Shown one piece after another: positions 14,639-16,430 of a DNA stretch of 22,627 bases. The notes under the pieces were generated by a model. That model did no database searches, was not told the DNA's origin, and saw only the letters and a list, made by a program, of their open reading frames with translations. Each line of letters starts with the position of its first letter. The first letter of the stretch is position 1. The stretch spans positions 1 through 22,627 of the IMG/VR virus record IMGVR_UViG_3300045051_000006; one strand, given 5' to 3'. Source of the stretch: a virus. Made by a program: the position numbers and the translations under genes.

Positions 14639-15007
14639 TTATCGGTATCTAAGCTTTTCATACGCTATTTCAGCGATGCGTTGCTTAAGTTGAGGGTCTT
14701 GCTTCGGTGTTGCGTTACTCTGTTTCTCGTTGCCAACCTCAATACAGCCGTGTTCTTTAAGGTGGTTACGATGCTTAGACTTGGAATCAATCCATGATCC
14801 ATCAATCTGGCTGATATAACCTTGAATGTCTGATTGGATCATAGGCGCTTCGCGTTTTGTCATTTCTTGCTTTAGTTTCCATGCTTCTTCAGCTTCTGGT
14901 GTGCCTAAAGTGTAGTTCCAGTGCAACAAATACTTGTCTTTTTCTGACAATTTGCTGTCATCTCTTGGTTCGTACTCGCTTTTACATAGTGGGCAAATAT
15001 GTTTCAT
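14639..15007 (-). CDS. Small Cys/His protein before scaffold, possible zinc finger
   Basis: A 122-aa protein beginning MKHICPLCKSEYEP, a CxxC knuckle (Cys5, Cys8). A second cluster follows at 79-88 (SKHRNHLKEHGC), offering His79, His82, His86 and Cys88, so a zinc site built from the CPLC knuckle and this helix is likely. Between them is a helical charged part (TLGTPEAEEAWKLKQEMTKR). The C-terminus is polar and helical. The arrangement resembles a C2H2/C2HC finger with an unusually long insertion, usable for nucleic-acid or protein binding. It starts in a TAATG junction with the glycosyltransferase gene (GAGGATGTAATG) and ends 21 bases before the scaffold start. Function unknown: a DNA-binding regulator or an assembly factor are both possible. 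Confidence 0.7.
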   Translation of the reverse strand: MKHICPLCKSEYEPRDDSKLSEKDKYLLHWNYTLGTPEAEEAWKLKQEMTKREAPMIQSDIQGYISQIDGSWIDSKSKHRNHLKEHGCIEVGNEKQSNATPKQDPQLKQRIAEIAYEKLRYR

Positions 15008-15915
15008 TACATCCTCGCTATTAGTTCAGTTACTTTGTGATACTCGTCAGGTCGTAAGCAAACAACAGAGTCATACCATCTAGCATTCTTCCATCGCCAG
15101 CATACAAATTCTTCTTTTGGTAGTAAAACAATGGTTTTGACGCCCAAAGCACCAGCCAAATGAGCAGTTCCAGTGTCTACGGTGACTATGCCCTTCATGG
15201 CCTTCATGTGTTTTGCGGTAATTGACCAGTCTTTTTTCCATCCATCGTTAGGTAATGGGTAGAAGTTGCCGTCAGACTCTGGATTTAGTGAATAAACATC
15301 ACTTCCAACCAGACTTTCCATGTGTTCTACAGAAATAGACTTGATCCATTGAAGATTTCCCTTGCTTGCAGCCCAATTGACGCCCACTTTCTTAGGTATA
15401 TAGCTTGGTTCTGCATCAAAGTAGCCTTCTGATCCAACAACTTTGGTGTTATTGATGGGAAAAAGGGCTTTTACATACGGCATGGCGCAATCAATGTAGT
15501 ACGGCAGTGACATTGAGCCAATCCAATAGTCACATTCGTGTGCTGGGCCTTCTTCTGTCTTGTTTGTTAGCTGATCAATGCACTCCATTTGACCAAGAAC
15601 TTGCATTAGTGCTGGTATACAAAGAACAACGACCTTTTCCGCGCCCATGACTTTGAGGGCTGGTAAGAATCTAGCGTATTGGAATATGTCACCAAAGCCT
15701 TGCTCCATCTGAACCACAATAGACTTGCCAATCAATGACTCACCTTGCCATGTTTTTGGTGCTTTTGGCAGTCTTTCGTATGGCAATTGTTGGTTACTTA
15801 GGATTGCTGGATGCCAGCGGTACTCAAAAAGCCTAAAGCCAGCAGCATATCTACCAGCGTGTAGATTATCGTAGGCTTTCTTGTACTCTGCGTGTGGGTT
15901 TAGATTAGTAGTAAT
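15007..15915 (-). CDS. Glycosyltransferase, GT9/TPR-type, with non-standard start
   Basis: A glycosyltransferase of the heptosyltransferase-like (GT9, GT-B) type found beside TPR repeats. Counting from the TTG at 15786, EQGFGD is at 28-33, DTGTAHLAGALG at 204-215 and a WRWKNARWYDSV end at 230-241. Only the TTG is a standard start, but the same frame stays open upstream to a TGA at 15925-15927 and reads NPHAEYKKAYDNLHAGRYAA, then GFRLFEYRWHPA. This is the family's own N-terminus (last TPR helix, 'L..GRY..G..L.EYRW', followed by 'P.W.Ge.l.Gk'). I therefore place the start at one of two ATT codons (15918 or 15915); the second lies six bases after AGGA. This gives about 302 aa; the TTG form would be 259. 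It could modify virion or host sugars. The abnormal start is discussed in findings. Confidence 0.8.
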   Translation of the reverse strand: MTTNLNPHAEYKKAYDNLHAGRYAAGFRLFEYRWHPAILSNQQLPYERLPKAPKTWQGESLIGKSIVVQMEQGFGDIFQYARFLPALKVMGAEKVVVLCIPALMQVLGQMECIDQLTNKTEEGPAHECDYWIGSMSLPYYIDCAMPYVKALFPINNTKVVGSEGYFDAEPSYIPKKVGVNWAASKGNLQWIKSISVEHMESLVGSDVYSLNPESDGNFYPLPNDGWKKDWSITAKHMKAMKGIVTVDTGTAHLAGALGVKTIVLLPKEEFVCWRWKNARWYDSVVCLRPDEYHKVTELIARM

Positions 15916-16430
15916 AATGCTTCCTCATCATCTCGTTCAGCAGCCATTTGAGCTTCGTGAATCGCTAACATGGCCTGTGCCTGTGCTATCTGATTCCTTA
16001 ACTCAACCGTTTTCAGCAGTTTCTCTTGCTGGCGTTGAAGATTGATAATGGTCGCATTGAGTTTCTTAAGGTCAATTGACGGTTTATCAATCTTAACTTC
16101 TGAAACGGATTCTACTTTAGTTACTTTAACTTGTAAAACTGGTTTTGGATCTATTAAGTCAGCAATTTGTTGCTTGCGTAGTAGTGACTTAGTTTTTCTA
16201 GCCTGTATCTTGTCGGCTTCTGCTTGAGCTAGTTTCTTCTGTAGTTTTTTGTAACGCTTGTACTCATCTTTTGTAAAGCCATCATGAGTATCTACGGTGA
16301 CTTCGCCACCAGTGACTGTACCTACTAAATTAGCTGTATCGTTCTGATCTACTGCATAGATAACACCAGTTACTGGGTCTACTTGAAACCCAGAGTTCTG
16401 GAAAGCATTAGATTGAAACGCTGTGGTCAT
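15900..16430 (-). CDS. Coiled-coil protein with fibre-like N-terminus
   Basis: A 176-aa protein. The first 45 residues are polar and beta-type with an FQ repeat (AFQSNAFQNSGFQV) followed by TGVIYAVDQNDTANLVGTVT, a start common to small phage head- or tail-associated proteins. From about residue 55 the protein is a charged coiled coil (YKRYKKLQKKLAQAEADKIQ; LKKLNATIINLQRQQEKLLK; LRNQIAQAQAMLAIHEAQMA) ending DDEEALLLLI. The ATG is in a TAATG junction with the fibre-like gene. Its tail overlaps the putative true start of the glycosyltransferase by about 16 bases and contains GAGGAA, which can serve as that gene's ribosome binding site. Real gene; virion attachment is an inference. Confidence 0.65.
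   Translation of the reverse strand: MTTAFQSNAFQNSGFQVDPVTGVIYAVDQNDTANLVGTVTGGEVTVDTHDGFTKDEYKRYKKLQKKLAQAEADKIQARKTKSLLRKQQIADLIDPKPVLQVKVTKVESVSEVKIDKPSIDLKKLNATIINLQRQQEKLLKTVELRNQIAQAQAMLAIHEAQMAAERDDEEALLLLI

Follow-up and report, generated by a model that had tools for sequence, protein, structure and literature searches.

The glycosyltransferase (GT) gene of the phage fragment analysed here is very probably translated as a protein of its own from an AUU codon at 15915-15913 on the minus strand, behind a GAGG motif. With moderate confidence, we further propose that AUU has been kept as the primary GT start across deep divergence (to about 53% protein identity), wedged in a -1 overlap with the upstream gene that excludes NTG codons, and that the weak codon may also set a low, coupled expression.

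The window, i.e. the whole stretch of 22,627 nucleotides that was analysed, is an IMG/VR record of a 22.6-kb viral fragment, from a member of a family of uncultured phages, and its main genes, a terminase and a tail protein among them, are carried by the minus strand. GT sits between a coiled-coil (CC) gene at 16430-15900, which ends in the TAA at 15902-15900, and a small Cys-motif gene at 15007-14639. The last codons of CC overlap the GT start in another frame, and the conserved CC tail (DDEEALLLLI and variants) contains the ATT. The GT gene as proposed is an open frame that runs on the minus strand from the AUU to its stop codon (15007-15915) and encodes 302 residues; the mechanical ORF listing puts its start at the TTG at 15786-15784. 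Rfam and tRNA searches gave no matches. Among GenBank phages we found only four remote GT matches, all below 28% identity, and no relatives of CC; the search among bacteria returned one GT match, at 27% identity, PHROGs held no match for GT and a PDB sequence search gave no convincing relative. Three unrelated phages (L201, L202 and L205, near position 2500) have in common with CC only an N-terminal motif of the MTTAFQSNAFQN type, to which different bodies are attached.

Above TTG 15786-15784 the GT frame is open on the minus strand up to the TGA at 15927-15925 and reads GSIITTNLNPHAEYKKAYDNLHAGRYAAGFRLFEYRWHPAILSNQQ. ATG, GTG and TTG are all absent from the 46 sense codons between this TGA and the TTG, as the first-pass annotation had claimed; 43 of these codons are counted from the proposed start site, and the 42 between the AUU and the TTG (15787-15912, minus strand) form the N-terminal extension, modelled as helix-turn-helix. 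The same start-less frame recurs in 218 of the 255 distinct related junctions and is therefore not a product of chance. Eighty relatives from IMG/VR display the same extension, nearly all of them without a canonical start. Protein-level selection acts on the extension: among the ATT-type members on a tree of 140 representative GTs, the substitutions in 32 N-terminal codons number 266, 107 and 782 at codon positions 1, 2 and 3, respectively. In an AlphaFold2 model of the 302-residue GT (mean pLDDT 90.2), the extension folds as a confident helical hairpin with helices at residues 7-19 and 23-34 and block pLDDT values of 91 and 88 over residues 11-30. The substitution pattern and the confident fold together mark the extension as real protein, corroborating the earlier view that it belongs to the translated product. 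The PxWxGExL block, which had been placed within it, is actually located downstream of TTG 15786.

Gene callers limited to ATG, GTG and TTG would choose TTG 15786 and leave the extension untranslated. This start is rejected because the equivalent codon varies among relatives, where it often encodes Ile, and the homologue comparison that the first-pass annotation proposed for this point places the beginning of the canonical-start relatives near the ATT position; the hairpin and the strong position-3 bias of the changes also contradict an untranslated extension. The single-base sequence error put forward earlier is excluded by the replication of the same arrangement in more than 200 contigs, so that an error or a true start at the TTG is scarcely credible. 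A short ATG open reading frame in the third frame of the window (MMRKHYYY) was also considered and discarded, as relatives do not conserve its stop.

Junctions were collected from IMG/VR with GT and CC queries, which yielded a CC-anchored set of 197 distinct junctions and an enlarged set of 255. The enlarged set comprises 218 GT genes without a canonical start, all of them with an in-frame ATT close to the CC end, 36 with ATG and one (L045) with neither. The GT frame of the latter (L045:1-641) lies near a contig end, lacks an upstream CC gene and is possibly chimeric or rearranged. In the CC-anchored set, 166 GT genes have no canonical start and every one shows an in-frame ATT 7-19 nt before the CC stop, against only 4 with an ATT in this stretch among the 26 with a canonical start. 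When the homologous site was defined by anchoring on the CC motif D-D/E-E-x-x, the ATT occupied a single site in 162/166 start-less relatives versus 2/26 canonical-start relatives, counts that are not independent, because the ATT-type GT genes form in essence a single clade of 118 representatives, in which two losses are nested. The remaining four start-less loci (L064, L139, L269 and L286) have the ATT one codon later. In the window the homologous site is 15915-15913, the second of two ATTs, which is the one that the first-pass annotation had favoured for its spacing. The first ATT (15918-15916, minus strand) is probably not the main start; only a minority of relatives have an ATT at this upstream place. 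In one relative the GT match spans 904 nt (L176:1501-2404), a length not divisible by three, implying a frameshift or an assembly error inside the gene.

The bases of the ATT differ in what they reveal. The two T bases, which fall on positions 2 and 1 of conserved CC codons, say little. The A falls on a CC wobble position, for which the tree shows a single change; for the remaining CC wobble bases nearby it shows 5 to 34, apart from the one that directly follows the ATT, which likewise changed once. At this site the CC Leu codons end in A in 96 of 96 cases, against 57% in the rest of the CC genes; ATA stands for Ile in 54 of 55 and GTA for Val in 15 of 15 (34% and 37%, respectively, elsewhere in the same genes). 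In favour of the ATT as a by-product of coding the Leu-rich CC tail, with GT starting in some other way, are the constraint of the CC frame on the two T bases and the common use of A-ending codons there; against it, the A is kept far more strictly than CC codon use predicts, and the same CC residues without an abutting GT use other codons: in L189, a GT-less relative, Ile-Leu is coded ATA CTT and there is no ATT at the site. We consider this explanation highly improbable. The base after the ATT (15912 in the window) is A in 165 of 166 loci; because it is kept as strongly as the A of the ATT, part of the conservation at the site may have another cause, and the A after the ATT is perhaps conserved as start-codon context.

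Under the proposed initiation at the AUU, the GAGG at 15923-15926 (minus strand), a candidate Shine-Dalgarno sequence 7 nt upstream of the second ATT, would position the ribosome, and the initiator tRNA would decode the AUU as (formyl)methionine. Initiation of GT is probably coupled to CC translation, because the AUU lies inside the CC end; the coupling could come from ribosomes that terminate a short way downstream or from unfolding of the mRNA, and the distance of 13 nt between the A of the ATT and the CC stop fits termination-reinitiation. Among the 166 start-less relatives the GAGG precedes the ATT by 7 nt in 134, by 4 nt in 22 and by 10 nt in 4, and a clear Shine-Dalgarno 4-mer is absent in 6, although the conservation of GAGG alone proves nothing, since the same bases specify conserved Asp-Glu residues of CC. 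A spacing of 7 nt falls inside the range of 5-9 nt reported for E. coli (PMC2268962). The strength of AUU as a start is about 0.3% of that of AUG in a survey as cited by PMC10666635, and this weakness leads us to expect a low GT output.

Another possibility is that ribosomes that finish CC restart at the codon that overlaps with the CC stop, in the window a CTA four codons past the ATT. Such restarts are a common way of gene coupling (PMC10666635), and the GT of L026 has an ATG at the equivalent place. In the ATT-type loci, however, the stop-overlapping codon varies (TTA in 67, GTA in 51, ATA in 28 and CTA in 20), and the tree shows about 36 changes of the base before the CC stop, while the ATT was retained. 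As the codon is not conserved, the restart is unsupported and very unlikely.

The frame relation between the two genes offers a reason for the use of AUU. GT lies in the -1 frame relative to CC, and in a -1 frame an NTG start, be it ATG, GTG, TTG or CTG, overlaps the upstream gene as NNN TGN, which is read there as Cys, Trp or stop. An ATT demands no more than NNA TTN in CC, a Leu or Phe codon that the conserved Leu-rich tail provides. Neither Cys nor Trp occurs in the last 20 CC codons of any of the 166 start-less loci, and in the window a change of the ATT to ATG would turn the CC Leu codon TTA into TGA. We infer that AUU persists because NTG would need Cys, Trp or a stop in the CC frame, and this overlap constraint explains the codon better than a self-regulation of the infC type. 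A TGA stop of CC, which would give an NTG start and is used as ATGA by sister groups, is absent from the 166 ATT-type loci, where CC ends in TAA or TAG throughout, with about 15 changes between the two on the tree. This hints that a stronger GT start may be avoided, but a general stop-codon preference could also be the cause of the missing TGA stops. In the window, TGA terminates 5 of the 24 genes.

ATG is the start in relatives whose GT stands apart from CC or overlaps with a TGA stop, and the ATT is almost always absent from them. Two such reversals (L026 and L035) are nested in the ATT clade, each with an insertion between CC and GT and without the ATT at the site. In L026 the insertion is an HNH-endonuclease-like gene (L026:2366-2887; the name was read from the sequence alone), whose stop overlaps the new ATG of GT as ATGA, and the CC tail has lost the ATT. 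The insertion in L035 measures about 45 nt and carries a 13-codon ORF; here GT has an ATG exactly at the ATT position (MSSNLNPH...). This ORF (L035:1357-1410) has a GTG start preceded by AAAGGAG and overlaps the ATG of GT. In the ATG-type sister groups, GT begins near the same residue as the ATT site, either in an ATGA overlap (e.g. L231-L244) or after a short spacer (L250-L267). The independent-pairs test could draw on only 2-3 pairs, too few to be significant, and these loci are therefore illustrative only.

These relatives also bear on a programmed -1 ribosomal frameshift near the CC end, which would produce a CC-GT fusion and leave GT without a start of its own. In favour of it, every start-less locus has GT in the -1 frame of CC, a frame relation that the first-pass annotation had seen in the window when it considered a -1 shift from CC, and only 22 or 25 nt separate the -1-frame stop from the CC stop in 164 of 166, a short and regular distance. 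Against it, a slippery X-XXY-YYZ heptamer is present in 0 of 166 loci, GT is a free-standing ATG gene in relatives, two of them within the ATT clade, and frameshifting does not predict an ATT at one site. We regard it as unlikely.

AUU starts as such are already known. The infC gene of E. coli, which encodes IF3, starts with AUU, as proposed for GT, and is a rare well-characterised case of a non-canonical start (PMC5472188). In infC fidelity mutants, a 3-15-fold higher signal is reported for non-canonical starts (PMC5472188). In infC the codon gives autoregulation of IF3, whereas the window holds a phage GT that is not known to be linked to IF3, and its AUU, unlike that of infC, lies in a -1 overlap from which NTG is excluded. 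PncA (BBE22) of Borrelia burgdorferi also starts with AUU, and its database entries are truncated, so that N-terminal residues needed for the fold are missing (PMC13398362); this is a cellular gene with experimental support, while the phage GT is known from sequence and lies in a -1 overlap. In Yersinia pestis RcsD-Hpt, the start function of an AUU behind a ribosome-binding site was shown by mutation (PMC10191623), but this codon is internal and beside a recent frameshift, whereas a large clade has kept the AUU of the window. AUU starts are rare: when 61,358 ancestral AUG starts were reconstructed, one switch to AUU was found (PMC5622118). Short overlapping pairs that use termination-reinitiation mostly overlap by 4 or 1 nt and have canonical starts (PMC10666635). 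The CC/GT pair resembles them in having the downstream start within the end of the upstream gene, which makes coupling plausible, and differs in its overlap of 16 nt (from the A of the ATT through the CC stop) and its AUU; the ATG-type sister phages show the 4-nt ATGA form of the coupled pairs.

Among the titles and abstracts listed from the open-access literature searched, we found no clade-wide conserved phage AUU start held by a -1 overlap. If true, a family-wide conserved AUU, with its more than 200 phage contigs, would stand out as a natural case of unusually good replication. Callers that accept only ATG, GTG and TTG as starts would cut about 43 structured residues from the GT of the window and similar stretches from its relatives. 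As a canonical start in a -1 overlap needs Cys, Trp or a stop, such overlaps are a place to seek hidden non-canonical starts, and our analysis suggests that the constraint may be a general, testable rule.

The fold of the GT product is probably GT9-like. The top 22 Foldseek matches of the model are GT9 or heptosyltransferase-type structures (TM about 0.41-0.51, E down to 1.2e-5), the best being the GT9 heptosyltransferases 3tov, WaaC and TibC, to which the identity is only 11-14% at a TM near 0.5. The infC-like self-regulation raised by the first-pass annotation found no support, the product being probably GT9-like and not IF3. Pfam Glyco_transf_9 scores 21 bits against the GT of the window (cut-off 22; E 2.3e-4), over residues 235-266 of 302 only, and matches 64 of 71 members.
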